From contig NZ_CP069535.1 of assembly GCF_016889805.1 (NCBI RefSeq), forward strand, positions 3,844,001 to 3,908,000: a DNA stretch of 64,000 bases, in the 5' to 3' direction. A program made the position numbers and the translations under genes. The notes beneath the pieces are model-generated. The model saw only the letters and a list, made by a program, of their open reading frames with translations, was not told the DNA's origin and made no database searches. The DNA comes from Rhodanobacter sp. FDAARGOS 1247. GTDB lineage: Bacteria; Pseudomonadota; Gammaproteobacteria; Xanthomonadales; Rhodanobacteraceae. Shown piece by piece: positions 20,715 through 36,523 of the stretch (positions are counted from its first letter, which is position 1; each line of letters starts with the position of its first letter).

Positions 20715-21806
20715 TCACGCCACGATGCGCCCGCCGCTGTCCGCATCGAACAGGTGCAGCCGCTCGTTCGCCAGGCCCAATGGCACTGCGTTGCCGGGCT
20801 TGGGCAGGGCTCGCGGCGCCACGCGGGAGACCAGCGGCTGGCTGCCGTAGCGCAGGTTGAGGAAGACCTCGTTGCCGACCGGCTCGACCACTTCGAGCTG
20901 CGCGGTGAGGGCGGCCGCGCCGGACGGCTGCGGCTGCAGGTCCTCCGGGCGGACGCCCAGCACCACCGCACGATCGCGCCACAGCTCCCACGCGGACGCC
21001 TGCGGCGGTTCGCCCAGTGCGATGTCGCCCTGACCGGTGACCAGCTTCCAGCCGTCCTGCCGCTGCAGGGTGCCGTGCAGCAGGTTCATCGCCGGGCTGC
21101 CCACGAAGCCGGCCACGAACAGGTTGGCCGGCTTGTCATACAGGTTCATCGGCGTGTCGATCTGCTGGATCACCCCGCCATCGAGCACCACGATGCGCTG
21201 GCCCAGGGTCATCGCCTCGATCTGGTCGTGGGTGACGTAGACCATGGTGGCCTTGAGCTGCCGATGCAGCCGGGCGATCTCCACCCGCATCGACAGGCGC
21301 AGCTTCGCGTCGAGGTTGGACAGCGGCTCGTCCAGCAGGAACACTTTGGGATCGCGCACCAGCGCCCGGCCCAGCGCCACGCGCTGGCGCTGGCCGCCGG
21401 ACAGCGCGCCGGGGCGCGAGGCCAGCCGGCTTTCCAGCTCCAGCGTCTTCGCCGCGGCCGCCACGCGGCCGTCGATGTCGGCCTGCCTGTGGCCGCGCAG
21501 TTTCAGGCCGAAGCCCAGGTTCTCGGCCACCGTCATGTGCGGATACAGCGCGTAGTTCTGGAACACCATCGCGATGTCGCGATCCTTGGGCGCGACGTCG
21601 TTGACCACGCGGCCGTCGATCGCCAGGGTGCCGTCGCTGATCGTTTCCAGGCCGGCGATCATCCTGAGCAGGGTGGTCTTGCCGCAGCCGGACGGCCCCA
21701 CCAGCACCAGCAGTTCGCCGTCGGCGATCTCGAAACTGGCGCCCGCCACGCCGACGTGGCCGTTGGGGTAGACCTTGCGCAACTGATCCAGTTGTACGGC
21801 GGCCAT
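20715..21806 (-). CDS. Sugar ABC transporter ATPase (MsmK/UgpC/MalK type)
   Basis: Cytoplasmic ATPase that powers CUT1-type sugar importers. It has 363 residues: Walker A GPSGCGKTT, Q-loop FQNYALYPHMTV, signature LSGGQRQRVALGRAL, Walker B VFLLDEPLSNLD, H-loop VYVTHDQIEAM, then the C-terminal OB/TOBE regulatory domain ending HLFDADSGGRIVA. The start at 21806 has GGAG six bases upstream; an ATG at 21812 directly abuts that site. The binding protein and permeases encoded at 30719-33737 have no ATPase of their own, so this is their probable partner. A LacI-type operator covers its likely promoter. Confidence 0.92.
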   Translation of the reverse strand: MAAVQLDQLRKVYPNGHVGVAGASFEIADGELLVLVGPSGCGKTTLLRMIAGLETISDGTLAIDGRVVNDVAPKDRDIAMVFQNYALYPHMTVAENLGFGLKLRGHRQADIDGRVAAAAKTLELESRLASRPGALSGGQRQRVALGRALVRDPKVFLLDEPLSNLDAKLRLSMRVEIARLHRQLKATMVYVTHDQIEAMTLGQRIVVLDGGVIQQIDTPMNLYDKPANLFVAGFVGSPAMNLLHGTLQRQDGWKLVTGQGDIALGEPPQASAWELWRDRAVVLGVRPEDLQPQPSGAAALTAQLEVVEPVGNEVFLNLRYGSQPLVSRVAPRALPKPGNAVPLGLANERLHLFDADSGGRIVA

Positions 21807-21886
21807 CGGCATCTCCGGTGCGGGTGGCCACGATGGCCGTCCCGCCGAAGCATGCGCTGGTCTGCACATCGGCGGGGCATTGGGCT

Positions 21887-21914
21887 ATTCTGCCCATGTA
21901 ATCGTTTACATCAA
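21887..21914 (-). promoter_or_regulatory. Probable ATPase-gene promoter overlapped by operator
   Basis: On the minus strand TTGATG (21914-21909) and CAGAAT (21892-21887) are separated by 16 bases, and the LacI-type palindrome at 21896-21911 covers the -35 edge and the spacer. Binding there would block RNA polymerase. Deduced from sequence only. Confidence 0.45.
21896..21911. promoter_or_regulatory. LacI-family operator between ATPase and GH1 genes
   Basis: ATGTAATCGTTTACAT is a 16-base palindrome with one mismatch pair and a central CG, the usual LacI/GalR-family operator shape (TGTAAACGTTTACA). It lies in the 131-base divergent region, 27 bases before the GH1 start, so one site could control both genes. 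A related site precedes the LacI-family gene at 25064. Confidence 0.75.
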
Positions 21915-21937
21915 GCACTTTGATTGCAGGAACCCCG

Positions 21938-23293
21938 ATGACACGCCCCAGTTTCCGCTTTCCCGACGGCTTCCACTGGGGTGCCGCCACGTCGGCCTAC
22001 CAGATCGAGGGTTCGCCGCTGGCCGATGGCGCCGGCCCCAGCATCTGGCAGCGCTTCGCCCACACGCCGGGGATGATGGTGAACGGCGACACCGGCGACG
22101 TCGCCTGCGACCACTACCGCCGCTACAAGGGCGACGTGCAGCTGATGAAGGCGCTGGGCCTCAAGGGCTACCGCTTCAGCATCAACTGGGCGCGGGTGCT
22201 GCCCGAGGGCACCGGCCGGGTCAATCCGCAGGGACTGGATTTCTACTCGAGGCTGGTCGACGAACTGCTGGAGAACGGCATCGTGCCGAACGCCACGCTG
22301 TTCCACTGGGACCTGCCGGCGGCGCTGGACGACCGCGGCGGCTGGCTCAACCGCGACATCGCGCACTGGTTCGCCGAGTACGCCGAAGTGATGTTCAAGG
22401 CGCTGGACGACCGCGTGCCGCGCTGGGCCACGCTCAACGAACCCTGGGTGGTCACCGACGGCGGCTACCTGCACGGTGCACTGGCACCGGGCCATCGCAG
22501 CAAGTACGAGGCGCCGATCGCCACGCACAACCTGATGCGCGCCAGCGGCGCCGGCATCCAGGCCTATCGCGCCCATGGCAGGCACGAGATCGGCGTGGTG
22601 TTCAACATCGAGCCGAAGTACCCGCACAGCGACAACGCCGAGGATCTGGCCGCCACCCGCCGCGCGCATGCCTACATGAACGAGCAGTTCGCCGACCCCG
22701 CCCTGCTGGGCCGTTATCCGCCCGAGCTGAAGGAGATCTTCGGCGACGCGTGGCCGGACTTCCCCGAAGACGATTTCAAGCTGACGAACCAGAAGGTCGA
22801 CTTCGTCGGCATCAACTACTACACCCGCGCCGTGGTGAAGCACGATGCGAACGCCTACCCGCTGAAGGCGGTGCCGGTGCGCCAGCCTAACAAGACCTAT
22901 ACCGAGACCGGCTGGGAGGTGTTCGAGCAGGGCCTGACCGACACGCTGACCTGGTTCAAGGATCGCTACGGCGACATCCCGCTGTACATCACCGAGAACG
23001 GTTCCGCGTTCTACGATCCGCCGGTGGCCGAGAACGGCGAGCTGGACGACCCGCTGCGCACGAACTACCTGCGCAAGCACCTCAAGGCGCTGCACAAGGC
23101 GATCGGGGCCGGGGTGAACCTCAAGGGCTATTACGCGTGGTCACTGCTGGACAACCTCGAATGGTCGCTGGGTTTCTCCAAGCGCTTCGGGCTCTACCAC
23201 GTCGACTTCGCCACCCAGCAGCGCACGCCCAAGGCCACCGCGAAACTGTATGCCCGGGTGATCGAGAGCAACGGCGCCGTGCTGGACGACTGA
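21938..23293 (+). CDS. GH1 beta-glucosidase
   Basis: Retaining glycoside hydrolase that releases glucose from the non-reducing end of beta-linked oligosaccharides. It has 451 residues and no signal peptide, hence cytoplasmic. It shows the GH1 N-terminal signature FPDGFHWGAATSAYQIEGSP, acid/base Glu in ATLNEPW and the nucleophile Glu in YITENGSAF, then WSLLDNLEWSLGFSKRFGL binding the glycone. The start ATG at 21938 follows TGCAGGAAC. Divergent from the sugar ATPase with a shared operator, consistent with hydrolysis of imported oligosaccharides. GH1 sequence does not fix the linkage. Confidence 0.95.
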   Translation: MTRPSFRFPDGFHWGAATSAYQIEGSPLADGAGPSIWQRFAHTPGMMVNGDTGDVACDHYRRYKGDVQLMKALGLKGYRFSINWARVLPEGTGRVNPQGLDFYSRLVDELLENGIVPNATLFHWDLPAALDDRGGWLNRDIAHWFAEYAEVMFKALDDRVPRWATLNEPWVVTDGGYLHGALAPGHRSKYEAPIATHNLMRASGAGIQAYRAHGRHEIGVVFNIEPKYPHSDNAEDLAATRRAHAYMNEQFADPALLGRYPPELKEIFGDAWPDFPEDDFKLTNQKVDFVGINYYTRAVVKHDANAYPLKAVPVRQPNKTYTETGWEVFEQGLTDTLTWFKDRYGDIPLYITENGSAFYDPPVAENGELDDPLRTNYLRKHLKALHKAIGAGVNLKGYYAWSLLDNLEWSLGFSKRFGLYHVDFATQQRTPKATAKLYARVIESNGAVLDD

Positions 23294-23310
23294 CCCATCG
23301 GAAGCTTTTG

Positions 23311-23447
23311 CTTCCCCTGCCCCGCAGGGGAAGCTGCCCGAAGGGCTGATGGGGTAGTGCTTTTGCTTTTCGCTGCTCGGAGCGTGGCTGCGCCGCGCGC
23401 ACCCCCATCCGCCCTTCGGGCACCTTCCCCCACATGCGGGGAAAGGG
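23311..23447. repeat. Long inverted repeat beyond the GH1 gene
   Basis: Left arm 23311-23354 and right arm 23403-23447 are imperfect reverse complements. The inner 25 bases (around GCCCGAAGGGC) match with two differences. Each arm also contains its own hairpin (CCCCTGCCCCGCAGGGG and CCTTCCCCCACATGCGGGG). The spacer is about 48 bases and has no gene. It separates the convergent GH1 and rsmG genes and belongs with the other G-rich palindromes of the window. Confidence 0.75.
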
Positions 23448-23478
23448 ATCAGCGGACTGGTCGCGGAGGTGGTTTCGG

Positions 23479-24111
23479 TTAGGCGCCGCGGGCCAGCACC
23501 AGCAGGTGGCGTTCGGCCGGCAGGCCCGGCACCGTCAACTCGTGCGTGCTGCGCAGCGCGAAGCCCGGCGGAATGCCCGGCAGCTCGTCATCCGGCCGCT
23601 TGCCTTTCATCGCCAGCCAGATTCCGTCCGGGGCCAGCAGATGACCACCCCAGCCCAGCATGTCGGCGAGGCTGGCAAACGCCCGGGCGGTGACGCAGTC
23701 GAACCGGCCTTCGACGTCTTCCACCCGCGACTGTTCGGCACGAACCCCTTCCAGTTTCAGCGAACGGATCGCCTCGCGCAGGAAGCGCACCTTCTTGCCG
23801 TTCGAATCCACCAGCAGGATCTGCCGACCGGGCGCGGCAATCGCCAGCACGATGCCGGGCAGGCCAGGACCGGTGCCGAGATCGGCCAGGGTCTGGCCCT
23901 GCACGTACGGCAGGATCGCCAGCGAATCGAGCAGGTGACGGGTGATCATCTCGTCCGGATCGCGCACCGCGGTGAGGTTGTACGCCGCGTTCCAGCGCTG
24001 CAGCAGGGCCTGGTAATCGAGCAGGCGCGGCACCGCCTCGGACGGCAACGACAGGCCAAGCGTGGCGATGCCTTGTTCGAGTCGTGCCTGCAGGGCGTCG
24101 CGGCTGGTCAT
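23479..24111 (-). CDS. rsmG: 16S rRNA (guanine527-N7)-methyltransferase RsmG (GidB)
   Basis: Methylates G527 of 16S rRNA using S-adenosylmethionine. It has 210 residues, the usual length. RWNAAYNLTAVRDPDEMITRHLLDSL precedes the SAM-binding ADLGTGPGLPGIVLAI, followed by LVDSNGKKVRFLREA and the conserved RAFASLADML region. The start at 24111 gives the family's normal N-terminus; an upstream in-frame start at 24177 would add an alanine-rich leader overlapping the terminator region. Usually next to parA; here the carbohydrate genes lie between. Confidence 0.95.
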   Translation of the reverse strand: MTSRDALQARLEQGIATLGLSLPSEAVPRLLDYQALLQRWNAAYNLTAVRDPDEMITRHLLDSLAILPYVQGQTLADLGTGPGLPGIVLAIAAPGRQILLVDSNGKKVRFLREAIRSLKLEGVRAEQSRVEDVEGRFDCVTARAFASLADMLGWGGHLLAPDGIWLAMKGKRPDDELPGIPPGFALRSTHELTVPGLPAERHLLVLARGA

Positions 24112-24175
24112 CGGTTCACTCGTCACATGGGGCCGCAAAGTATCGGCGGCCGCTGCCGCGCTTGCCAGCCCCGCC

Positions 24176-24202
24176 AAAAAGAAAAACCCGCCGTAGCGGG
24201 TT
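24176..24202 (-). terminator. Rho-independent terminator of the SPFH-like gene
   Basis: On the minus strand AACCCGC-TACG-GCGGGTT is followed by TTTTCTTTTTGG. It lies 62 bases beyond the stop of the SPFH-like gene and upstream of rsmG, separating the two transcripts. Confidence 0.85.
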
Positions 24203-24263
24203 CAATACCTGCAAATCCCCTGCGGCGCGGGCGTTCTGGGACGCCCTGGCGCGACCCCTTGAT

Positions 24264-24722
24264 TCAGGCGGCGTCCAATTCGACCCGCGTCACCATCATG
24301 CCGCGCTCGCGGAGCGCGCTGTTCAAGGACTGTTTCATCCGGGCGCCAAGGTCGCGCCGATCGGCGCCGGCGGCGACGGGCTCGTTGCGCAGCGCTTCAC
24401 GGGCGCCGCGGCGAATCAGCTGGTCGACCTGCTCGAACACCGCGTCCGCCCGCTCCGGCTCCAGCACCTGCCAGTACACGGTGCCGCGTACCTCGCCGGC
24501 ATCCTCCTGCGACGCATCCAGCCGCAGCGTCTGCCCGGCCAGGTTGATCTTGTGGGCCACCCGGTCGAGCAACGGCAACACCAGATGCGTTCCCTGCTGC
24601 AGTACCCGCACCAGCTTGCCGCGGCGATACAGGCTGTAGACCTGACCGGCCGGCACATGACGCACGGCGCTGGCGATCAGCGCGGTGGAGACAAGCAGCA
24701 AGGTGAGAGCAGCAGTCATCAT
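24264..24722 (-). CDS. Small SPFH/band-7-like membrane protein
   Basis: A 152-residue protein with an N-terminal hydrophobic segment (TAALTLLLVSTALIASAV) followed by a region resembling the start of SPFH/prohibitin domains: VPAGQVYSLYRRGKLVRVLQQGTHLVLPLLDRVAHKINL. It ends in a short helical part with MKQSLNSALRERGMMVTRVELD, which recalls the end of the SPFH domain. Typical SPFH proteins are 250-300 residues with a coiled-coil tail, so this is a short form. Role unknown. Two ATG codons in tandem (24722, 24719) are possible starts. Confidence 0.65.
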   Translation of the reverse strand: MMTAALTLLLVSTALIASAVRHVPAGQVYSLYRRGKLVRVLQQGTHLVLPLLDRVAHKINLAGQTLRLDASQEDAGEVRGTVYWQVLEPERADAVFEQVDQLIRRGAREALRNEPVAAGADRRDLGARMKQSLNSALRERGMMVTRVELDAA

Positions 24723-25039
24723 GGTCTTGAAAAACAGCAGGTTGCCTATCGTTTATTGAGTAACCGCGATAACTTGAGGATACAGTTGCCTGAGTCCACA
24801 AAGATTAACCTTCATTTAACGGTGAAACTGAAAATTTAACAAGTGGTCAGGCGAGGGCGGCGAATGACTCCGGTCACAGAACCACCAAGTCACTGAATGC
24901 CATGCCTGAATCGTGCCAAATCAAGGGCTGCTGCAACGCCGCAGCGGGAAACCGGTCGATCCGGGCCCGCGTCAGGGGATCTGCCGGCGACGGCGCGCGG
25001 CGATCGACGGCGACTGCCGCAGCGCAGCAGAGGTATCGT

Positions 25040-25057
25040 TTTACAAGCGCTTTACAA
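25040..25057. promoter_or_regulatory. AAGCGCTT-type LacI-family operator
   Basis: A perfect eight-base palindrome AAGCGCTT (25045-25052) lies within TTTACAAGCGCTTTACAA. LacI-family regulators of glucoside systems commonly recognise AAGCGCTT-centred sites. It also contains a TTTACA -35-like box. It lies 70 bases before the regulator gene. Confidence 0.45.
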
Positions 25058-25063
25058 TCCGCC

Positions 25064-25079
25064 ATGAAAACGTTTACGT
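25064..25079. promoter_or_regulatory. LacI-family operator upstream of its probable regulator gene
   Basis: ATGAAAACGTTTACGT is a 16-base palindrome with a central CG and two mismatched pairs, related to the site at 21896. It lies 43 bases before the LacI-type start, consistent with autoregulation and with co-control of the ATPase/GH1 pair. Confidence 0.6.
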
Positions 25080-25121
25080 TGGCGCCGCAATGCGGTTCCC
25101 TGTTCGCGGATCGGGTCACCA

Positions 25122-26132
25122 ATGCCAGCAGCAACCATCAAAGACGTGGCGCGCGAGGCCGGTGTATCGGTGGCCTCGGTGTCGCGCGCGCTGAACGGCG
25201 GCCGTGGCGTCACCGCCGAAACCTGCCGGCGCATCGTCGAGGCGGCCCAGCGCCTGCGCTACGTGCCGCACGCCGCCGCCCGCATGCTGATCACCCGGCG
25301 CACCAATACGGTGGGCGCCCTGCTGCCCGACCTGTACGGCGAATTCTTTTCCGAGCTGATCCGCGGCATCGACCTGGCGGCGCGGGCGCGCGGCCTGCAC
25401 CTGCTGGTCTCCAGCTCGCACGATGACGCGGAAGCGGCGGCGGCAGCCCTGCGCGCGATGCAGGGGCGGGTCGACGGCCTGCTGCTGATGTCGCCCCACG
25501 CCGATGCTGACTTCCTGCGGCAGAACCTGCCGCAGAATCTTCCCACCGTGCTGATCAACACCCGGCTGTCCGGCACCGACTACTGCGCCCTGTCGGTCGA
25601 CAACGACGGCGGCGCGCGGCTGATGGTCGAACATCTGCTGTCGCTGGGTCGACGGCGCATCGTGTTCATCCAGGGCCCACCGGGCAACCGCGACGCCACC
25701 CAGCGCGAACTCGGCTATCGCGAATCGCTGGCCAGCCATGCACCGGACAGTCCGGTGATGATGCTTCGCGGGGACTTCAGCGAGGAATCCGGCTATCGCG
25801 CCGGCCAGCAGGTGCTGGCGATGCGGCCGCGGCCGGATGCGGTGTTCGCCGCCAACGACATGATGGCGATCGGCTGCCTGGCGGCCCTGCGCGAGGCAGG
25901 CCTGCGCATCCCGCAGGACATCGCCGTGGGCGGCTTCGACGACGTGCCGATGGCGCGCTACGTGACGCCGCCGCTGACCACGATCCAGGTGCACATCGCG
26001 GAACTCGGCGGACAGGCGATGGCCCTGCTGGGCGAGCAACTCGACCACCCGGACGACGTGCGCGCGGGCCACCGGCGCCAGGTCGGCGCCGAGCTGGTGG
26101 TGCGCGCATCCAGCGCCGCACCATCGGGCTGA
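25122..26132 (+). CDS. LacI-family transcriptional regulator
   Basis: A 336-residue repressor. The N-terminal helix-turn-helix is TIKDVAREAGVSVASVSRAL followed by the hinge helix YVPHAAARMLITRRTNTVG, which reads the CG centre of operators. The periplasmic-binding-protein-like sensing domain includes DGLLLMSPH, DNDGGARLMVEHLL and AVGGFDDVPMARYVTPPLTTI. The context of glucan and ABC genes suggests it senses a gluco-oligosaccharide or glucose derivative and represses the locus; two to four operator-like palindromes nearby support this. The ribosome site is weak. Confidence 0.92.
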   Translation: MPAATIKDVAREAGVSVASVSRALNGGRGVTAETCRRIVEAAQRLRYVPHAAARMLITRRTNTVGALLPDLYGEFFSELIRGIDLAARARGLHLLVSSSHDDAEAAAAALRAMQGRVDGLLLMSPHADADFLRQNLPQNLPTVLINTRLSGTDYCALSVDNDGGARLMVEHLLSLGRRRIVFIQGPPGNRDATQRELGYRESLASHAPDSPVMMLRGDFSEESGYRAGQQVLAMRPRPDAVFAANDMMAIGCLAALREAGLRIPQDIAVGGFDDVPMARYVTPPLTTIQVHIAELGGQAMALLGEQLDHPDDVRAGHRRQVGAELVVRASSAAPSG

Positions 26133-26173
26133 AACGCATCGACATACCGGCGCCGGATCGCGCCGGAAGGAAC

Positions 26174-26196
26174 TGCACCGGGCAGCGGTCGGTGCA
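26174..26196 (+). other. Hairpin in the leader between regulator and TonB receptor
   Basis: TGCACCG (26174-26180) and CGGTGCA (26190-26196) pair perfectly around nine bases. It lies 42 bases after the LacI-type stop and about 100 bases before the receptor start. No T-run follows, so it may be an mRNA structure or an operator rather than a terminator. Confidence 0.4.
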
Positions 26197-26292
26197 CTCC
26201 AGGCGGGCCACGGTAGCGGTCCGCAGACAATGGCACGGCAACGACGGAAGAGCGTTCCACCACCTTGCAACGATTACGGGAGAGGGTCAGTC

Positions 26293-29118
26293 ATGGTCAA
26301 TCAACGTACGTTATCCAGGCACATCTCGCTGGCACTCGCCGGCCTGCTGGTCACCGCATTCGCGCTGCCGGGCGCGCACGCCCAGACCAGCACGGCGATC
26401 CTGCGCGGGCACGTCAGCGCACCGCAGGGCGCGATGCCCACCCAGGTGGTGGCCACCAATACCGCCAACGGTTTCGTCAGCAAGGCGAAGGTCGGTGCGG
26501 ACGGCAACTACACCCTGGCCGGACTGAGCCCGGGCAGCTACACCATCGTGGCCAGCGGCAACGGCAGCAGCGCCAGCCGCACCGTCACGGTGCAGGTCGG
26601 CCAGGCGCTGAACCTCAACCTGGACGCCGGCGCCGCCGCGGCCGGACCCAGCACCAGCAATGCCACCGAGCTGCAGGGCGTCTCGGTGAACGCCACCACC
26701 CTGGTCGAGACGCGCACTTCGGAAGTGGCCACCAACATCAGCCAGAAGCAGATCCAGCAACTGCCCCAGAACGAGCGCAACTTCCTGGATTTCGCCAAGC
26801 TGGTGCCGGGCGTGACCACCTCGCGCGACCCCAACTCGAAAAGCTTTTCGGCGGGCGGTCAGTCGGCCGAGAATGTAAACGTTTTCATCGACGGCGCCAG
26901 CCTGAAGAACAACGTGCTCAAGGGCGGCATCGCCGGCCAGGACTCCACCCGCGGCAACCCGTTCTCGCAGGAGGCGGTGCAGGAATTCCGCGTACTCACC
27001 AACAACTACAAGGCCGAGTACGAGCAGGCCGGCACCGCGATCATCACCGCGGTGACCAAGTCCGGCACCAACGAATTCCACGGTTCGCTCTACGACTACT
27101 TCCAGAACACGTCGATGATCGCGCAGAACTCGTTCGACAAGAAAAACCACGTCAAGAAACCCGAATACAAGCGCGAACAGCGCGGCTTCACCCTGGGCGG
27201 CCCGATCATCAAGGACGTGGCGCAGTTCTTCATCAACTACGAGGAACGCAAGGACACCGCCAACAAGACCGTACAGATCAACGACCCGCGCTTCGCCCAG
27301 TACAACGGCACGTTCTCGGCGCCGTTCAACGAGAAGACCTTCTTCGGCAAGTTGAGCTGGCAGCCGAACCATGACAACAACGTCGACCTCAGCCTGACCA
27401 CCCGGCGCGACAGCGAGCAGCTCGGCTTCGGCGGCACCACCGCCTACAGCGCCCGCAGCAACCGCAAGAACAACGTCGACGACCTGCTGCTGAAATGGCA
27501 GAAGCGTGGCGACAGCTACACCAATGATTTGCTGCTGGATGCGGGCACGGCAAAATGGCGCCCCACCTCGGCCGAATCCGGCACGGCGCGGGCCATCGTC
27601 GATCCCGGCATCGCGGTGATCGGCGCCGGCGGCGACCTGCAGGACAAGGGCCAGGACCAGCGCACCTTCCGCGACGATTTCACCTGGTTCGGCCTGCCCG
27701 ACCACACGATCAAGGCGGGCATCAAGTACGCCGCGTACGGCATCACGCTGGAGCAGAACAGCGCCACCGTGCCGACCTACTACTTCCAGGAAGGCCCGGA
27801 TTATCCCGGCGGCTTCAACACTCCCTACAAGGCGGTGTACGCGCCCAACGGGGCCAGTGCCAACCTGCACACCAACCAGTTCGGCCTGTATGTACAGGAC
27901 GACTGGGACATCACCGAACGCCTGCAGTTGAACCTGGGCATCCGCTGGGATTACGAGACCAACGCCCTCAACAAGGACTACGTGACGCCGGCCGCGCAGA
28001 TCCCCACGCTGGAATACCTGGGCCTGCAGAACTACATCAGCAACGGCCACAACCGTGACGGCTACAAGGGGGCGATCCAGCCGCGGCTGGGCTTCTCGCT
28101 GGACGTCAGCAAGGACGGCGACCAGAGCACCACCATCTTCGGCGGCGCCGGCCGCTACTACGACCGCACGCCGTTCGACTGGATCAGCCAGGAACAGCTG
28201 CACTCGCTGGTGCCGAACTACACCTTCCTGTTCAGTCCCGGCGGCGTCACCCCCGGCACCATCGCATGGGACCCGAGCTACCTGACGCCGGCCGGCCTCA
28301 ACGGTCTGCTGGCATCCGGCTCGGCCGGTTTCAGTTCCGAAATCGACGTGGTCAACAACAACACCAAGCCGCCGCACACCGACCAGTTCAGCCTGGGCGT
28401 GCGTCAGGTGATGGGTGACTGGACCGCCTCGCTGACGTTGGCCCGCGTGCTGGGCTACGACCAGTTCACCTGGGTGTGGAACCGCCTGCCACTGCCGGGC
28501 TTCACGCTCGACATCATGCCCGGCAGCCCGTACGGCGCGGTGCTGCACAACACCGACAAGAAGACCCAGTCCAGCAGCGTGCTGGTCAGCATCGACAAGC
28601 CGTACACCGAAGCGTCCGGCTGGGGCGTGGGCCTGGCCTACACCTACCAGCGCGCGCGCCAGCAGGGCAACGACAACTACTCGCTGGACTATGTCGATCC
28701 GGCGGGCTACCCCGCCGGCAACGTGGGCGAGAAACAGCACCTGGTGCTCAACGGCATCGTGCGCGGGCCATGGGATACCCGGCTGACCGGCATCTTCACC
28801 TATGGCTCGGGCCTGCCCTGGGACTACTTCGATACCCGTCCGGGCTGCGACTACAACTGCGTCTTCTACAAGGGCGGCAAGTACGGCCAGAAGTACCTCA
28901 ACCTCGACCTGTCGATCGCCAAGGAATTCCGCTGGGGCGAAAGCCAGGCGCTGGAGCTGCGCTTCGACGTGATGAACGTGTTCAACCGCGACGTCGACAA
29001 CGGTTACGTCAACAACCTCTACAACGGAGCGAACCCGAATCCTGATTTCGGCCGGGCCACCAGTGCCGACCCGAACCAGACCCGCCGCTTCCAGATCGGC
29101 GCGCGCTACACGTTCTGA
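26293..29118 (+). CDS. Oar-like TonB-dependent outer membrane receptor
   Basis: A 941-residue outer membrane transporter. It has a signal peptide to about residue 33 (ending PGAHAQTS), a carboxypeptidase-regulatory-like Ig domain at about residues 36-115 (ATNTANGFVSKAKVGADGNY, LSPGSYTI), a plug domain with QQLPQNERNFLDFAKLVPG, and the Oar signature IITAVTKSGTNEFHGSLYDY. A 22-stranded barrel ends in the aromatic GARYTF. It probably captures the locus substrate at the cell surface using TonB energy. The start at 26293 follows GGGAGAGGG. An operator-like palindrome lies inside the gene (26873-26888). It is followed by the GH144 gene. Confidence 0.92.
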   Translation: MVNQRTLSRHISLALAGLLVTAFALPGAHAQTSTAILRGHVSAPQGAMPTQVVATNTANGFVSKAKVGADGNYTLAGLSPGSYTIVASGNGSSASRTVTVQVGQALNLNLDAGAAAAGPSTSNATELQGVSVNATTLVETRTSEVATNISQKQIQQLPQNERNFLDFAKLVPGVTTSRDPNSKSFSAGGQSAENVNVFIDGASLKNNVLKGGIAGQDSTRGNPFSQEAVQEFRVLTNNYKAEYEQAGTAIITAVTKSGTNEFHGSLYDYFQNTSMIAQNSFDKKNHVKKPEYKREQRGFTLGGPIIKDVAQFFINYEERKDTANKTVQINDPRFAQYNGTFSAPFNEKTFFGKLSWQPNHDNNVDLSLTTRRDSEQLGFGGTTAYSARSNRKNNVDDLLLKWQKRGDSYTNDLLLDAGTAKWRPTSAESGTARAIVDPGIAVIGAGGDLQDKGQDQRTFRDDFTWFGLPDHTIKAGIKYAAYGITLEQNSATVPTYYFQEGPDYPGGFNTPYKAVYAPNGASANLHTNQFGLYVQDDWDITERLQLNLGIRWDYETNALNKDYVTPAAQIPTLEYLGLQNYISNGHNRDGYKGAIQPRLGFSLDVSKDGDQSTTIFGGAGRYYDRTPFDWISQEQLHSLVPNYTFLFSPGGVTPGTIAWDPSYLTPAGLNGLLASGSAGFSSEIDVVNNNTKPPHTDQFSLGVRQVMGDWTASLTLARVLGYDQFTWVWNRLPLPGFTLDIMPGSPYGAVLHNTDKKTQSSSVLVSIDKPYTEASGWGVGLAYTYQRARQQGNDNYSLDYVDPAGYPAGNVGEKQHLVLNGIVRGPWDTRLTGIFTYGSGLPWDYFDTRPGCDYNCVFYKGGKYGQKYLNLDLSIAKEFRWGESQALELRFDVMNVFNRDVDNGYVNNLYNGANPNPDFGRATSADPNQTRRFQIGARYTF

Positions 29119-29149
29119 TCCACCCGCGGCAAGGCAGTACCGATTCATC

Positions 29150-29215
29150 CGTCCGCTTCGTGAGAACGGACGTCTGGACGTCCACCTGAACCTGCGCTCC
29201 CCCGCGGGTCCAGGT
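29150..29215 (+). other. Structured intercistronic region, receptor to GH144
   Basis: Within the 128-base gap, CGTCCG/CGGACG (29150-29172) and CCACCTG/CAGGTGG (about 29182-29217) can each form a stem, the second enclosing a GC-rich loop. No T-run is present. Such stems often set different expression levels for genes in one message. Confidence 0.35.
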
Positions 29216-29246
29216 GGCGTCGCTCACAAAGTACGGCAGACCGATC

Positions 29247-30722
29247 ATGACGTTTCCCCACCGGCCCGCATGGCTTGCCTCCCTCCTGCTCGGCCTGGCC
29301 CTGGTGCTGGCAGCTCCCGCCAGCCCGGCCTGGCAGGCCCGACCCGACCCCGCTCCCGCCACAACCGCCACAACCGCCAGCACGCCCGAAGTACCGGCGC
29401 TGGTCAACGACCTCGAACAGCGCACCTTCCAGTTCTTCTGGGACAGCGCGGACCCGGCCAATGGCCTGGTGCCCGACCACTATCCGGGCGAATCGTTCTC
29501 CAGCATCGCCGCGGTCGGCTTCGGCCTGACCGCCTACGGCGTGGGCGTGGAGCGCGGCTACATCACCCGTGAACAGGCGGTGGAGCGCACGCTCGCCACG
29601 CTGCGCTTCTTCGACACTGCGCCGCAGGGCGACAGCGAGGACGACGACAGCGGCTACCACGGTTTCTTCTATCACTTCCTCGACATGAAGAGCGGCCGGC
29701 GCTTCGCCCGCTGGACCGAGGTGTCCACGGTCGACACCTCGCTGCTGCTGGGCGGCGTGCTGTTCGCGCAGTCGTACTACGACCGCGACACGCCGGCCGA
29801 GCAGGAAATCCGCACGCTGGCCGACCGCATCTACCGGCGGGTCGACTGGCCCTGGGCACAGGTGCGCGCGCCGCTGATCAGCATGGGCTGGACGCCGGGC
29901 GGCAAGTTCATCCCGCACGACTGGGAAGGCTACAACGAGGCGATGCTGGTCTACGTGCTGGCGCTGGGCTCGCCCACGCATCCGGTGGACGCCGACGCCT
30001 GGACGGCGTGGACCCGCACCTACGACCGCAGCTGGGGCAGCTTCCACGGCGAGCAGCTACTGAACTTCGGCCCGTTGTTCGGCCACCAGTACAGCCATGT
30101 GTGGATCGACTTCCGCGGCATCCGCGATGCCTGGAACCGCCAGCACGACCTCGACTATTTCGAGAACAGCCGCCGCGCGGTGATCGCCCAGAGGAACTAC
30201 GCGATCGCCAACCCGGGCGGCTGGACCGGCTATGGCCCGAACATGTGGGGGCTCACCGCCAGCAACGGTCCCGGCGGCATCGTCATGGACGGCAAGAGCA
30301 AGCGCCAGTTCTACGGCTACACGGCGCGGGGCGCCGGACTGGGCTACCTGGTCGACGACGGCACCCTCGTGCCCACCGCGGTCGCCGGCTCGATCGCGTT
30401 CGCGCCCGAGCTGGTGATTCCCGCGCTGGAGGAGATGAAGCGCCGCTACGGCAGCGCGATCTACAACCGGCACGGCTTCGTCGACGCCTTCAACCCCAGC
30501 TTCCACGTGCAAACGGAGTTGCGCACGGGCAAAGTGCTGCCGATGGGCTGGGTCGACAGCGAGCAGCTGGGCATCGACCAGGGGCCGATCGTGCTGATGA
30601 TCGAGAACTGGCGCAGCGACTTCGTCTGGAACGTGATGAAGAAGAACCCGTACATCCGCAAGGGACTTCAGCGCGCCGGCTTCGAAGGCGGCTGGCTGGC
30701 CGCGCAGGCGTCGAAAAAATGA
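29247..30722 (+). CDS. GH144-type secreted glucanase (probable endo-beta-1,2-glucanase)
   Basis: A 491-residue exported protein of the glucoamylase-like fold. A signal peptide ends near ASPAWQA, followed by a short Ala/Thr/Pro linker, then an (alpha/alpha)6 barrel. Recognisable blocks are LEQRTFQFFWDSADPANGLV, STVDTSLLLGGVLFAQ, SMGWTPGGKFIPHDWEGYNE, FGHQYSHVWIDFRGIRDAW and GYGPNMWGLTASNGPGG. The known activity of characterised GH144 members is endo-cleavage of linear beta-1,2-glucan; this protein's substrate is inferred. It probably acts in the periplasm. The last codon overlaps the start of the binding-protein gene (ATGA). A GTG at 29214 is a less likely start. Confidence 0.8.
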   Translation: MTFPHRPAWLASLLLGLALVLAAPASPAWQARPDPAPATTATTASTPEVPALVNDLEQRTFQFFWDSADPANGLVPDHYPGESFSSIAAVGFGLTAYGVGVERGYITREQAVERTLATLRFFDTAPQGDSEDDDSGYHGFFYHFLDMKSGRRFARWTEVSTVDTSLLLGGVLFAQSYYDRDTPAEQEIRTLADRIYRRVDWPWAQVRAPLISMGWTPGGKFIPHDWEGYNEAMLVYVLALGSPTHPVDADAWTAWTRTYDRSWGSFHGEQLLNFGPLFGHQYSHVWIDFRGIRDAWNRQHDLDYFENSRRAVIAQRNYAIANPGGWTGYGPNMWGLTASNGPGGIVMDGKSKRQFYGYTARGAGLGYLVDDGTLVPTAVAGSIAFAPELVIPALEEMKRRYGSAIYNRHGFVDAFNPSFHVQTELRTGKVLPMGWVDSEQLGIDQGPIVLMIENWRSDFVWNVMKKNPYIRKGLQRAGFEGGWLAAQASKK

Positions 30723-32044
30723 GCTGCCGTGCGCGCCCGTGGCGGCACGCATGGCTGGTGGCGATCGCCTGCTGCAGCGCCCTGCTGGGCAGTTGCACGC
30801 AAGCGCCGGACAACCACGAACTCACGTTCTGGACGATCGGCCGCGAAGGCGAAGCCATCGTCCAGTTGCTGCCCGCGTTCGAGCGCGCCCACCCGGACAT
30901 CCACGTCAGGGTGCAGCAGCTGCCGCTGACCGCCGCGCACCAGAAGCTGCTTACCGCCTTTGCCGGCGATTCCACCCCGGACCTCAGCCAGCTCGGCAAC
31001 ACCTGGCTGCCCGAGCTGGCCGCATTGCACGCGCTGGAGCCCTTGCAGGCGCGGGTCGACCGTTCGCGGGTGATCCAGCCGCGTGACTACTTCGCCAGCA
31101 TCTGGGCCACCAACGTGATCGACGGCACGCTGTACGGCGTGCCGTGGTACGTCGACACGCGGCTGCTGTTCTATCGCCGCGACCTGTTGCAGGCCGCCGG
31201 TTTCGACGCACCGCCGCGCAACTGGGCCCAGTGGCGGCAACAGCTTGCTGCATTGAGCGATCCCGCCCGCCACCGCTACGGCATCCTCTTGCCGACCAAC
31301 GAGTACGAGCAGCTGATGTCGCTGGCGCTGCAGCAGGACTACGGCCCGCATCCCGGCGACGGGCTGTTGCGTGACGGCGGTCGCTACGGCAATTTCGAAA
31401 GCGCGGGGTTCAAGCAGGCGCTGGCCTTCTACGTCGACACCTTCCGGCTGCGCCAGGCGCCGGCGATCACGAATGTCGAAGCGGGCAATCCGTGGACCGA
31501 GTTTGGCCGCGGCGTGTACGCGTTCTACCTGTCCGGCCCGTGGAACATCGGCGAATTCCGCGCGCGCCTGCCGGCAGCGCAGCAGGACGACTGGGCCACC
31601 GCGCCCCTGCCCGGCCCGACCGGTTCCGGCATCGGCGTGGCCGGCGGTTCCAGCCTGGTGATCTTCCGTCGCTCGCGGCACAAGGACGCGGCGTGGCAGC
31701 TGATCGAGTACCTGTCGCAGCCCGCGGTGCAGCGACAGTTCTACGACCTGCTCGGCGACATGCCGCCCCGGCGCAGCTCATGGGAGGGCGGCGCCCTGCA
31801 TGACGATCCCAAGGCGCGCGCGTTCCGCCAGCAGCTGGAGCAGGTGCGGCCCGCGCCGGCCGTGCCGGAGTGGGAGCGCATCGCCAACGAGATGCAGCTG
31901 GTCGCCGCCGAGGCGATCGCCGGCCGGCTGACGATTGACCAGGCCGCCGCCGAGATGGATCGCCGCGCCGACGCGATCCTGGCCAAACGGCGCTGGGTGC
32001 TCGACCACGCCCATCCTGACCAGCTCCGTGGGCACACGCCATGA
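30719..32044 (+). CDS. ABC sugar-binding lipoprotein (CUT1 family)
   Basis: Solute-binding protein of 441 residues, tethered to the inner membrane by a lipobox ending LLGSC (Cys26). The mature start NHELTFWTIGREGEAIVQLLPAFERAHPDI is typical of oligosaccharide-binding family 1 proteins. STPDLSQLGNTWLPELAAL and GTLYGVPWYVDTRLLFYRRDLL form the inter-domain hinge and ligand pocket. The start overlaps the GH144 stop by four bases (ATGA), and its stop overlaps the permease start the same way, so all are translationally coupled. Expected to bind oligosaccharides made by the neighbouring glucanase. Confidence 0.92.
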   Translation: MSCRARPWRHAWLVAIACCSALLGSCTQAPDNHELTFWTIGREGEAIVQLLPAFERAHPDIHVRVQQLPLTAAHQKLLTAFAGDSTPDLSQLGNTWLPELAALHALEPLQARVDRSRVIQPRDYFASIWATNVIDGTLYGVPWYVDTRLLFYRRDLLQAAGFDAPPRNWAQWRQQLAALSDPARHRYGILLPTNEYEQLMSLALQQDYGPHPGDGLLRDGGRYGNFESAGFKQALAFYVDTFRLRQAPAITNVEAGNPWTEFGRGVYAFYLSGPWNIGEFRARLPAAQQDDWATAPLPGPTGSGIGVAGGSSLVIFRRSRHKDAAWQLIEYLSQPAVQRQFYDLLGDMPPRRSSWEGGALHDDPKARAFRQQLEQVRPAPAVPEWERIANEMQLVAAEAIAGRLTIDQAAAEMDRRADAILAKRRWVLDHAHPDQLRGHTP

Positions 32045-32919
32045 ATCCGCAACGGACGGCCTGGCTGTTCCTCGCCCCGGCGCTGCTGGTGCTGGGCGTG
32101 TTCTTCCTGCTGCCGGTGCTGGCCGCGCTGCTGCTCAGCCTCACCGACTACGACCTCTACGCGCTGGCCGACATCCGCAACCTGCGTTTCGTGGCGCTGG
32201 GCAATTACTGGGAACTGCTGCAGCGGCCGCTGTTCTGGTCGGCGCTGGGACACACGATGTACTTCGTGGCGGTGGGCGTGCCGTTGTCGATGGGCGCCTC
32301 GCTGGGCGCGGCGATGCTGCTGAACTCGCCGCTGGCGCGCTGCAAGCCGTTCTTCCGCACCGCGCTGTTCGCGCCGGTGGTGACCACGGTGGTGGCCACC
32401 GCGGTGATCTGGCGCTACCTGTTCAACACCAAATACGGCATGGCGAATTATGTGCTGGGGCTGCTCGGCATCCATCCGGTGGACTGGCTGGGCGATCCGC
32501 ACTGGGCGATGCCCACGATCATCGCGTTCGCGGTGTGGAAGAACTTCGGCTACAACATGATCATCTTCCTGGCCGGCCTGCAGGCGATCCCGCCGGACCT
32601 GTACGAAGCCGCCCGCATCGACGGCGCCTCGCCCTGGCGGCAATTCCGCCACATCACCCTGCCGATGCTCAAACCCACCATGCTGATGGTGGGCATCCTC
32701 ACCGTGTCGGGCTACTTCCAGCTGTTCGCCGAACCCTACGTGATGACCGAGGGCGGCCCGCTGCAAAGCACGGTCAGCGTGCTGTACCTGATGTACGACG
32801 AAGGCTTCAAGTGGTGGAACCTCGGCTCCGCTTCGGCGGTGGCGTTCCTGCTGTTCCTGATCATGTTCGCGGTGACCGTGCTGATGCTGAAACTGTCCCG
32901 ACACGGAGAGCAGGCATGA
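32041..32919 (+). CDS. ABC sugar transporter permease (MalF type)
   Basis: Inner membrane subunit, 292 residues with six helices. The first (AWLFLAPALLVLGVFFLLPVLAALLLSLTDYDL) is the typical opening. The ATPase-coupling EAA loop is EAARIDGASPWRQFRHITLP at about residues 190-209. It pairs with the next gene to form the CUT1 channel. Start and stop each overlap the flanking genes by four bases. Confidence 0.93.
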   Translation: MNPQRTAWLFLAPALLVLGVFFLLPVLAALLLSLTDYDLYALADIRNLRFVALGNYWELLQRPLFWSALGHTMYFVAVGVPLSMGASLGAAMLLNSPLARCKPFFRTALFAPVVTTVVATAVIWRYLFNTKYGMANYVLGLLGIHPVDWLGDPHWAMPTIIAFAVWKNFGYNMIIFLAGLQAIPPDLYEAARIDGASPWRQFRHITLPMLKPTMLMVGILTVSGYFQLFAEPYVMTEGGPLQSTVSVLYLMYDEGFKWWNLGSASAVAFLLFLIMFAVTVLMLKLSRHGEQA

Positions 32920-33737
32920 ATCCGCGGCTGGCCAGGGCGCTGGTCAACGGCCTGCTGATCGGCGTGGCCGCGGTGGCGCTGTTCCCGCTGCTGTGGATGC
33001 TATCGGTGTCGTTCATGGCGCCGGGCGCGGCCAGCGCGCTGCCGCCGCCGCTGCTGCCGCGCCATGCCGGCTGGGACAACTACCGCGAATTGTTCGTGCA
33101 CGCCGGCATGGGCCGCTACCTGCTCAACAGCCTGCTGGTGGCCGGCACCATCACCGTGCTGTCGCTGGCCTGCAACCTGCTGGCCGGCTACGCCTTCGCC
33201 AAGCTGCGCTTCGCCGGGCGCGAGCGGCTGTTCCAGGCCTTGCTGGGCGCACTGGTGATCCCCGCCCAGGTGGCCATGCTGCCGCTGTTCCTGCTGCTGA
33301 AGTACATCGGGCTGGTGAACAGCTACGCCGGCGTGGTGGTGCCCGCGCTGGCCACCGTGTTCGGCATCTTCCTGGTGCGCCAGTACGCCCGCGGCATTCC
33401 CGACGAACTGCTGGAAGCGGCGCGGATCGACGGCGCCGGCGAGTGGCGGATCTTCGCGCAGATCGTGCTGCCGCTGCTGAAGCCGATCATCGTGACACTG
33501 GCCATCTTCACCTTCCTCGCCGCGTGGAACGACTTCATGTGGCCGCTGATCGTGCTGACCGGGCAGGACCACTACACCTTGCCGATCGGCCTGGCCTCGC
33601 TGGCGCGCGAACACTCGCAGGACAGCGAGCTGATGATGGCCGGCTCGGTGGTCACCGTGCTGCCGGTGCTGCTGCTGTTCCTGTCGCTGCAGCGCTACTA
33701 CCTCGAAGGCCTGCTGCTGGGCAGCGTGAAGGGCTGA
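32916..33737 (+). CDS. ABC sugar transporter permease (MalG type)
   Basis: Second channel subunit, 273 residues with six helices and the EAA loop EAARIDGAGEWRIFAQIVLP at about residues 167-186. The start ATGA overlap with the first permease argues for coupled translation. No ATPase follows; the MsmK-like ATPase at 20715 is the likely motor. Confidence 0.93.
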   Translation: MNPRLARALVNGLLIGVAAVALFPLLWMLSVSFMAPGAASALPPPLLPRHAGWDNYRELFVHAGMGRYLLNSLLVAGTITVLSLACNLLAGYAFAKLRFAGRERLFQALLGALVIPAQVAMLPLFLLLKYIGLVNSYAGVVVPALATVFGIFLVRQYARGIPDELLEAARIDGAGEWRIFAQIVLPLLKPIIVTLAIFTFLAAWNDFMWPLIVLTGQDHYTLPIGLASLAREHSQDSELMMAGSVVTVLPVLLLFLSLQRYYLEGLLLGSVKG

Positions 33738-33739
33738 CG

Positions 33740-36523
33740 ATGCGTCGCTACCTTCCCGTGCTGCTTGCCCTGCTCGCGATCAACCACTTCGCACATGCCG
33801 AAGCGGCGTCACGAACCCTCGACGACTTCACCCAGCCGAACGCCTGGCAAGCCATCGCCACCGACGACATCGGCGTATCCCTGCGCCCGGCCAGCGGGCC
33901 GCACGGCAAGGCGATCTGCCTGGACTTCGACTTCAACGGCGTGTCCGGCGGGCCGAGCCTGCGTCGCACGCTGCCGATCACTTTTCCCGACAACTACGCG
34001 CTGTCGTTCGACGTGCGCGGCAACATGCCGACGAACGACCTGCAACTGAAACTGATCGACGCCAGCGGCGACAACGTGTGGTGGTATCGACAACAGAACT
34101 TCCGGCCGACCGATGCGTGGCAGACGATCACCGCCAACAGGCGCGACATCGTTTCGGCTTGGGGTCCGGCGCAGGACCGCACGCTGCGCCACACGCAGAC
34201 GCTGGAATTCACCCTGTATGCCGGGCAGGGCGGTCGCGGCGAATTCTGCCTCGGCAATCTCCGCCTGACGCCGTTGCCGCCCGCACCCGTCGACGAGCCC
34301 ACGCCGGCCAGCCTCACCCCGAATGCCCGGCTGATGCGGCAGGCGCGCAGCGCCCCGCGCGGCATCTACCCGCGGGGCTTCTCCGGCGAGCAGAGCTACT
34401 GGACCCTGGTCGGCGTGGACGGTGGCGCGAAGCAATCGGCGCTGCTCTCCGAGGACGGCGCGGTGGAGGTGCGCAAGGGCGGCTGGTCGATCGAGCCGAT
34501 GCTGCTGGACGGCGACACGCTGATCGACTGGGGCACGGTGAAAGCCACGCAAAGCCTGCAGGACGGCTACCTGCCGATTCCCACCGTGCACTGGCAGGCC
34601 GACGGCCTGCGGCTGGACACCACAGCCTTCGCCAACGGCACGTCGGCTCGTTCGAACCTGCTGCTGCAATACCGCCTGCACAACGACGGCTCGCAACCGC
34701 GCACGCTGACGCTGGCCTTGCTGTTGCGACCGTTCCAGGTCAATCCGCCCACCCAGTTTCTCAACACGCCCGGCGGCATCAGCGCGATCCGCGACCTCGA
34801 GCGGGATGGCCATGGCGTGCAGGTCAATCGGGCGCTGCGCGTCGTGCCGCTGCAGACACCCACCGCGTTTGTCGGCAGTCGCCATGGCGAGCTCACCTTG
34901 CCGCAGCGGCTGGCCCGCGGCGAACGGCCGCGCATCACCGCGCTGCACGACGACAGCGGCTACGCCCAAGGCGCGCTGCTGTATCGGCTGACCGTGCCGG
35001 CTCACTCGGCCGTGACGCTGGGCCTGGTGGTGCCTTCGGATGCGTCTTCGTTCGCCACTCCCGCCGACGCCATGCGCTGGCTGCAGCAACAGCGCGACGA
35101 GGTGGCGGCCGCATGGCGCGAAAAGCTCGATCGCGTGACCCTGCAATTGCCGGCTGCCCAACAGGCGCTGGTCGACACCGCGCGCAGCGCGCAGGCCCAG
35201 ATGCTGATTTCGCGCGATGGCCCGGCGCTGCAACCGGGCACGCGTTCGTATGCGCGCACGTGGATTCGCGACGGCGCGATGATGAGCGAGGCGCTGCTGC
35301 GCAGCGGCCACGCCGACGTTGCGGGCGCGTTCGTGCAGTGGTACGCGCCGCACCAGTTCGCCACCGGCAAGGTGCCGTGCTGCGTCGATGCGCGCGGTGC
35401 CGACCCGGTGGTGGAGAACGACAGTCCCGGCGAATTGCTGTTCGCGATCGCCGAATGGTGGCGCTACGGCCATGACCGTGCCGGCCTGCGGCGGCTATGG
35501 CCGCACGTGGAACGCACGGTGGCCTACATGGACCGGCTGCGCGCCAGCGAGCGCACCCCGGCGCAGCAGGGCAGCTCGCGCTACGGCCTGATGCCGGCCT
35601 CGATCAGCCACGAAGGCTACTCGGCCAAGCCGATGCATTCGTACTGGGACGACTTCTGGGCGCTGCGCGGCTACGACGATGCGGTCGAGCTGGCGCGCGT
35701 CCTGGCCAGGCACGACGAGGCGATCCGCTACGCCGCCTCGCGCGATGCCTTCCGCGCCGACCTGCAGGCCTCGATCCTGGCGGCGGTGCACGAACACCGC
35801 ATCGACTTCATCCCCGGCGCGGCCGAGCTGGGCGACTTCGATGCCACCTCCACCACCATCGCGCTGTCGCCCGGCGGCACCCAGGCGTGGTTGCCGCCAG
35901 CGTTGCTGCAGCAGACCTTCGAGCGCTACTGGCAGGGCTTCATCGCGCGGCGCGACGGCGACAAGCCATGGGATGACTACACCCCGTACGAGTGGCGCAA
36001 CGTGGCGGCCTTCGTCCGGCTGGGCTGGCGCCAGCGGGTGCCGGCGCTGCTCGACTTCTTCATGGCCGACCGCCGTCCCGCGGGGTGGAACCAGTGGGCC
36101 GAAGTGGTGGGTCGCGACGCGCGCGAGCCGCGCTTTGTCGGCGACATGCCGCATGCGTGGATCGCCTCGGACTTCCTGCGCTCGCTGTACGACCTGTTTG
36201 CCTGGGAGCGCCGCAGCGACCAGGCGCTGGTGCTGGCCGACGGCATGCCGGTGGACTGGCTGCGCGGCGAAGGCATCGGCATTGAGCACCTGCGCACGCC
36301 CTACGGCGAGCTGAGTTACCGCCTGCGCGAACACGACGGGCGGCTGGAGCTGTCGCTGCCGGCCGGCAACGCGATGCCGCCCGGCGGCCTGGTGCTGCGC
36401 TGGCCGTACGCCGGCCAGCCCGGCGGCACGGCGCGGCTGAATGGTGCGCCGGTGGCGTGGCGGCACGGCGAGATCGTCGTCCGCTCGCTGCCCGCCACGG
36501 TGCAGATCGACCCCGCCCGCTGA
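33740..36523 (+). CDS. Secreted (alpha/alpha)6-like putative glycosidase with N-terminal CBM-like domain
   Basis: A 927-residue protein with signal peptide ending NHFAHAEA. Residues ~25-180 look like a jelly-roll carbohydrate-binding/galactose-binding module (TLDDFTQPNAWQAI, YALSFDVRGNMP, FCLGNLRLTPLP). A beta-rich domain (about 200-470) follows, then an (alpha/alpha)6-like catalytic part with YARTWIRDGAMMSEALLRSG, DARGADPVVENDSPGELLF, SYWDDFWALRGYDDAV and DYTPYEWRNVAAFVRLGW. Similar proteins are often labelled coagulation factor 5/8-type or six-hairpin glycosidase-like. Candidate acidic catalytic residues lie in WIRDGAM and ENDSPGE. It begins two bases after the permease stop, so it belongs to the glucan operon. 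Exact family uncertain. Confidence 0.7.
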   Translation: MRRYLPVLLALLAINHFAHAEAASRTLDDFTQPNAWQAIATDDIGVSLRPASGPHGKAICLDFDFNGVSGGPSLRRTLPITFPDNYALSFDVRGNMPTNDLQLKLIDASGDNVWWYRQQNFRPTDAWQTITANRRDIVSAWGPAQDRTLRHTQTLEFTLYAGQGGRGEFCLGNLRLTPLPPAPVDEPTPASLTPNARLMRQARSAPRGIYPRGFSGEQSYWTLVGVDGGAKQSALLSEDGAVEVRKGGWSIEPMLLDGDTLIDWGTVKATQSLQDGYLPIPTVHWQADGLRLDTTAFANGTSARSNLLLQYRLHNDGSQPRTLTLALLLRPFQVNPPTQFLNTPGGISAIRDLERDGHGVQVNRALRVVPLQTPTAFVGSRHGELTLPQRLARGERPRITALHDDSGYAQGALLYRLTVPAHSAVTLGLVVPSDASSFATPADAMRWLQQQRDEVAAAWREKLDRVTLQLPAAQQALVDTARSAQAQMLISRDGPALQPGTRSYARTWIRDGAMMSEALLRSGHADVAGAFVQWYAPHQFATGKVPCCVDARGADPVVENDSPGELLFAIAEWWRYGHDRAGLRRLWPHVERTVAYMDRLRASERTPAQQGSSRYGLMPASISHEGYSAKPMHSYWDDFWALRGYDDAVELARVLARHDEAIRYAASRDAFRADLQASILAAVHEHRIDFIPGAAELGDFDATSTTIALSPGGTQAWLPPALLQQTFERYWQGFIARRDGDKPWDDYTPYEWRNVAAFVRLGWRQRVPALLDFFMADRRPAGWNQWAEVVGRDAREPRFVGDMPHAWIASDFLRSLYDLFAWERRSDQALVLADGMPVDWLRGEGIGIEHLRTPYGELSYRLREHDGRLELSLPAGNAMPPGGLVLRWPYAGQPGGTARLNGAPVAWRHGEIVVRSLPATVQIDPAR

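Follow-up and report, generated by a model that had tools for sequence, protein, structure and literature searches.

A widely conserved gene set of the soil bacterium Rhodanobacter sp. FDAARGOS 1247 very probably serves to cleave the bacterial polymer beta-1,2-glucan extracellularly, to take up the fragments and to convert them to glucose. The set lies in a stretch of 64,000 nucleotides (the window; C1:3844001-3908000 of the nearly complete 3.92-Mb genome, with unprefixed positions counted from its first letter), and we read it with considerable confidence as a beta-1,2-glucan utilisation system under LacI control. The computed evidence comprises gene identities, the GH144 signature of the glucanase, the conserved neighbourhood, operator-like sites and the fold of a large protein, here called X927. 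A sequence-only reading of the same DNA had named an ATPase, a GH1 enzyme, rsmG, a LacI regulator, a receptor, a glucanase, a lipoprotein, permeases and the large protein; each of these genes is present as an intact frame, and family matches back this inventory. The genes of the proposed system are as follows (ABC, ATP-binding cassette).

20715..21806, minus strand: MsmK/UgpC-type ABC ATPase (PRK11650, 478.8 bits, above the subfamily cut-off of 432)
21938..23293, plus strand: GH1 beta-glucosidase (PF00232, E 7.5e-155; TIGR03356, 580 bits, cut-off 478.5)
25122..26132, plus strand: LacI-family regulator (PF00356, PF13377)
26293..29118, plus strand: Oar-like TonB-dependent receptor (PF25183, PF13620, PF07715, PF00593; OMP_b-brl_4, CarboxypepD_reg, Plug)
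29247..30722, plus strand: GH144-type endo-beta-1,2-glucanase (PF10091), with a signal-peptide-like start by eye
30719..32044, plus strand: ABC solute-binding lipoprotein (lipobox by eye; 3uor match)
32041..32919, plus strand: ABC permease 1 (PF00528)
32916..33737, plus strand: ABC permease 2 (PF00528; start read from the sequence, translation checked)
33740..36523, plus strand: X927, 927 aa, with a signal-peptide-like start by eye; predicted N-terminal beta-sandwich, supersandwich and (alpha/alpha)6 domain, outside known families

In the path that we propose, the secreted GH144 enzyme would cut beta-1,2-glucan into beta-1,2-glucooligosaccharides, the Oar-like receptor would move glucan or fragments through the outer membrane, and X927 may trim either of them outside the cytoplasm. 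The lipoprotein would pass the oligosaccharides to the two permeases, for which the MsmK-type ATPase would supply the energy; in the cytoplasm, the GH1 enzyme would free glucose. The substrate of receptor and importer, the role of X927 and the cell locations are what we infer in this scheme.

GH144 membership of the glucanase

The glucanase matched PF10091 at 281.8 bits (cut-off 27; scored on a longer frame), and its top match in the PDB was 8xul, that is XcSGL (XCC2207), a GH144 protein of Xanthomonas campestris, with 259 of 441 aligned residues identical (58.7%). The three residues that define the SGL clan (E239, F286 and Y367 in XcSGL numbering) are kept as E231, F278 and Y358; we assume that the Q at the first clan position of the crystallised XcSGL chain comes from the mutant with which the complex was obtained, and the numbering offset depends on this. 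With the family match, the best solved relative and the clan residues in agreement, the GH144 call made from sequence for the 29247-30722 protein holds. XcSGL was termed a beta-1,2-glucanase for its narrow specificity (PMC12102758, in the part covered): it gave 3.85 U/mg on beta-1,2-glucan alditol, and no activity was detected on the other substrates in the covered part of the table. The Rhodanobacter enzyme would thus be expected, from its sequence, to act on beta-1,2-glucan.

Conservation of the locus across genomes

Co-occurrence was counted in a family set of 147 genomes, 96 of which match the binding protein; one weak match (G006) was dropped and the 95 strong ones were kept. The sequence-only reading had suggested conservation of the gene set as a check: a GH144 gene lies within 2 kb of the binding-protein gene in 94 of the 95 genomes; in the one remaining genome, G108, they sit on separate contigs. 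Gene context was taken from the best 80 of at least 571 X927 relatives found in a scan of species genomes with an X927 alignment (the 80 X927 loci, which include several strains of one species and are not independent). In view in these loci were the second permease (80), the binding protein (79), the first permease (79), GH144 (76), the receptor (73) and LacI (67), together with an ATPase match in 34 (some of them distant paralogues) and GH1 in 27; in the four loci without GH144, X927 begins at most 3 kb from a contig end. X927 itself starts at most 700 bases from the second permease in all 80.

A GH94 match was in view in 12 of the 80 X927 loci. Eight of these loci, all from Duganella or Rugamonas (Oxalobacteraceae), have X927, GH1, GH94 and an ATPase with 46 to 49% identity in a row on one strand, and the Duganella-locus GH94 that was tested is of the cyclic-glucan-synthase type (873 bits versus 276 for the next kind).

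A separate feature of the neighbourhood is a gene of the tryptophan-halogenase family, which in 31 of 120 loci separates the receptor gene from GH144 (Pfam-checked for L084:9135-10655 and L046:12026-13591). It was found only with a divergent receptor class (31 of 98 loci) and in none of the 14 loci with the receptor class of the window.

A binding protein related to Xac-MalE and Lin1841

Against the PDB, the binding protein scored 498 bits with 3uor (Xac-MalE of Xanthomonas citri), 196 with 5ysb (Lin1841 of Listeria innocua) and 107 with the third match; apart from Xac-MalE, it is thus nearer to Lin1841 than to any other solved binder. Lin1841 binds beta-1,2-glucooligosaccharides (PMC12369401, in the part covered). 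Together with the GH94 matches in the 12 loci, the Lin1841-like binding protein now carries the linkage specificity beyond the one family call from which it had first been proposed.

The locus binding protein from a genome of family f2 (L051:11033-12262), a family that we take to be Xanthomonadaceae, scored 728 bits with 3uor and 228 with Lin1841. Because of this score and this family assignment, Xac-MalE is placed in the Xanthomonas form of the locus, where, on sequence grounds, it is most likely the binding protein.

The separate ATPase and GH1 pair

That the distant ATPase serves the importer had been proposed from sequence, and membership of the ATPase and GH1 pair in the system gains support from three sides: i) of the 95 binding-protein genomes, 82 have the GH1 orthologue (at least 62% identity), versus one of the 52 others (Fisher p 5e-26, uncorrected for kinship); ii) in some loci the pair adjoins the permease genes or continues the row that contains X927, and where X927 is missing, ATPase and GH1 often come directly after the second permease (e.g. 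L055 to L059); iii) close paralogues of the ATPase are lacking, as the runner-up among 41 matches in the genome is 37% identical over part of the protein. Of the 32 loci showing both GH1 and an ATPase (at least 40% identity), 22 have the two genes separated by under 300 bases. Across 83 genomes, GH1 is at most 6 kb from the binding protein in 37 and at most 15 or 20 kb from it in 53.

No signal peptide was seen by eye in the GH1 protein, and its action would be on beta-1,2 linkages. In Streptomyces griseus, SGR_2426 is sophorose-specific, with Gln229 and Trp291 given as residues of beta-1,2 preference in the part of the source covered.

GH1 and X927 occur together in 26 of the 95 genomes; 56 have GH1 alone, 13 have X927 alone, and no genome lacks both (Fisher 2e-6, uncorrected). 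We do not build on this complementarity, because 11 of the 13 X927-only genomes share one genus label, g11. A GH1 paralogue of 46% identity is present in at least one of the 13, namely G062. In two Luteibacter loci no glucosidase was recognised downstream of X927, as judged by the starts of predicted frames only.

LacI-type sites in both arms

The window was scanned with TGTAANCGNTTACA, at least 12 of 14 positions matching, which gave three sites in 64 kb versus a mean of 0.35 in 20 simulated sequences.

21897..21910: LacI-type operator-like site TGTAATCGTTTACA between the ATPase and GH1 genes (14 of 14 positions)
25065..25078: LacI-type operator-like site TGAAAACGTTTACG upstream of lacI (12 of 14 positions)
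26874-26887: operator-like site within the receptor gene (13 of 14 positions)

The first two agree with the earlier statement that such operators occur on both sides of rsmG. Between the arms lie two other genes.

23479-24111, minus strand: rsmG (GidB match)
24264-24722, minus strand: small gene between rsmG and lacI (Band_7/SPFH match)

Operator-like sites were also counted in the 80 X927 loci and in another 40 loci, two sets that partly overlap, with one site counted for both genes where GH1 and ATPase are divergent. Nearly every lacI gene had such a site upstream (100 of 103 loci), and X927 never had one (0 of 105). For the other genes the counts of upstream sites were 25 of 38 (GH1), 27 of 46 (ATPase match), 41 of 116 (GH144) and 17 of 112 (receptor). 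These counts fit a single LacI protein acting on both arms; the motif is of the general LacI type, and it is by this LacI protein that the locus would be regulated.

Weighing of the substrate

Several points weigh against assignment of the locus to beta-1,2-glucan: i) genomes and loci are interrelated and the 40-locus and 80-locus sets partly overlap, so the counts overstate independence; ii) GH1 is more than 20 kb from the binding protein, or otherwise not near it, in 30 of the 83 genomes; iii) the GH1 orthologue is absent from 13 of the 95 binding-protein genomes; iv) X927 is absent from 56 of the 95; v) the best PDB relatives of the GH1 protein are named general beta-glucosidases; vi) Xac-MalE is described as a putative maltose/trehalose binder, with its ligand listed as unknown (PMC7676653, in the part covered).

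The names of the GH1 relatives would suit uptake of other beta-glucosides (cello-, laminari- or gentio-oligosaccharides), with the glucanase as one of several feeders. We consider this improbable, since it is a GH144 glucanase that keeps recurring next to the importer genes (those 94 of 95 genomes), XcSGL had no detected activity on other glucans in the covered part of its table, and the Duganella-locus GH94 is of the cyclic-glucan-synthase type. An importer of maltose or trehalose, as the name of Xac-MalE would have it, appears very improbable: the ligand of that protein is listed as unknown, the next relative after it is Lin1841, well ahead of the following one in bits, and the neighbouring genes are beta-glucan enzymes. 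Furthermore, as Xac-MalE appears to be the binding protein of the locus, its maltose/trehalose label may be wrong. Beta-1,2-glucan utilisation thus stays the reading that we prefer.

Origin of the glucan

The same biochemistry could serve another source, namely the cyclic beta-1,2-glucan that the cell makes itself with an NdvB-type synthase and would recycle rather than feed on that of others. A full cyclic glucan synthase of this type is encoded at C1:3811191-3819917, about 45 kb from the ATPase gene, and because it is present this alternative was kept. The synthase is also commoner with the binding protein (55 of 95 genomes) than without it (20 of 52; Fisher p 0.026, uncorrected for kinship). 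On the other hand, 40 of the 95 binding-protein genomes have no synthase match, and thus the locus is not tied to own synthesis; the secreted glucanase and the TonB receptor point outwards; and none of the 30 GH186-positive genomes in a 200-genome sample of the order belongs to the family of the window. Self-recycling may occur in this organism, but we doubt that it is the main task of the locus.

Recycling of a glucan of the OpgG/D type was dropped as an explanation, because GH186 (OpgG/D) gave no match in the genome of the window, in a search whose E. coli control was positive. An E. coli OpgH query likewise gave no match in the genome, in a search without a positive control.

Elsewhere in the genome, at C1:108.9-114.4 kb (L063:4912-10401), a GH94 gene of cyclic-glucan-synthase type (1292 aa) is divergent from a GH144 paralogue. 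No operator-like site was found in the stretches of this second pair and of the synthase.

A large protein outside known families

The sequence-only reading had described a large (alpha/alpha)6-like protein, for which the list of open reading frames gave a start at 32993. The predicted fold agrees and the start does not: the segment from 32993 is an in-frame extension of the open reading frame, running through part of the second permease gene, which is read in a different frame, and X927 most likely starts at the ATG at 33740, directly after that gene. The protein is 96% identical to one of Rhodanobacter sp. Root179.

By sequence, X927 could not be placed in a family. No Pfam family exceeded its cut-off; there was no PF00723 (GH15) row for the window protein and only one among 13 relatives, at E 0.13; PF17167 (GH94) was not among the 12 families matched by 13 proteins of the X927 set; and the single protein had no sequence match in the PDB at E up to 1. 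A profile of X927 found weak PDB matches only, the best two being a hyaluronate lyase domain (N-terminal part) and laminaribiose phosphorylase. In an hhalign-type comparison with six-sequence sets, the probability was 6.6% for GH15 and 18.7% for GH94, neither significant, and therefore no anomeric specificity was assigned.

An AlphaFold2 model (predicted local distance difference test, pLDDT, 88.7; predicted template-modelling score, pTM, 0.89) lets us state with confidence that X927 is predicted to have an (alpha/alpha)6 glycosidase fold. It shares the architecture of a supersandwich plus (alpha/alpha)6 domain with dextran dextrinase and glucodextranase (which we take to be GH15), GH94 phosphorylases, GH65, GH78 and GH116, but differs from these fold relatives in having no family-level sequence match. 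D637 and E788 are invariant in an 80-row alignment; by analogy with GH15 motifs we guess that they are acid and base, respectively.

In the family set, X927 has 39 strong matches (the weak one of G006 dropped), and 37 of these genomes have the binding protein within 6 kb; the other two are pieces of split genes on separate contigs. Within the genus of the window it occurs in only three of 11 genomes. Distant paralogues (32 to 39% identical) are found elsewhere or in the same locus in several genomes, among them one of 33% with an N-terminal F5/8 domain within an f2 locus (L050:11498-14605) and others of 36 to 39% elsewhere in g11 genomes.

It is a tentative idea, which we hold to be rather unlikely as it stands, that X927 represents a new family of glycoside hydrolases specialised for beta-1,2-glucan. 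It would then be a secreted exo-enzyme taking off the parts that resist GH144, such as the alpha-1,6 bond of Xanthomonas cyclic glucohexadecaose or what is left of that bond, or it would have an exo-beta-1,2 activity. The distribution of X927 gives the alpha-1,6 version no clear support: X927 is present in all seven loci taken from f2, a family rich in GH186 (it accounts for 25 of the 30 positive genomes), and also in 39 genomes of a family without a GH186 positive in the 200-genome sample.

Relation to known systems and significance

Parts of such a path had been described or suggested before, as far as the covered parts of the sources go. In Ignavibacterium album (PMC8861115), a cluster holds two GH144 genes, a putative Sop-binding ABC protein and a GH94 resembling the C-terminal region of cyclic glucan synthase, and TonB-dependent plus ABC transport was speculated; it differs from the window locus in having a GH35 transglycosylase, and no GH1, LacI or X927-like protein is named there. 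SGR_2423-2427 of S. griseus (PMC12369401) resembles the window locus in its Lin1841-type importer, GH1 beta-1,2-glucosidase and SGL-type glucanase, but has GH193 instead of GH144, with no TonB receptor or X927 mentioned. In L. innocua, lin1839-1843 (PMC12369401) likewise combines an ABC importer, whose binding protein Lin1841 is related, with enzymes degrading beta-1,2-oligosaccharides; these are a GH94 phosphorylase and a GH3 beta-glucosidase, and no GH144, TonB receptor or X927 is mentioned. XcSGL (XCC2207) is treated as an enzyme in the covered part of PMC12102758, which makes no mention of a TonB or ABC transporter; XCC2208, the next number, is among receptor-type proteins without a canonical plug in the covered part of its source.

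We found no earlier description of the whole locus in Xanthomonadales in the open-access literature. As far as our searches reach, what is new is the conserved form of the locus in Xanthomonadales and Oxalobacteraceae, its LacI sites, the place of Xac-MalE and X927.

Beta-1,2-glucan is important in symbiosis and disease, and its enzymes have so far been found one by one. The locus would provide a surface-to-glucose path conserved in Xanthomonadales and Oxalobacteraceae; it offers a likely ligand for Xac-MalE of Xanthomonas citri, whose structure is solved but whose function is unassigned, and links beta-1,2-glucan with a particular group of GH1 enzymes. It also brings out X927 as a large glycosidase-like family, as yet unclassified, for which there are a few candidate substrates. 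If the role proposed for X927 is true, its carriers could consume the whole cyclic glucan of plant-associated bacteria.

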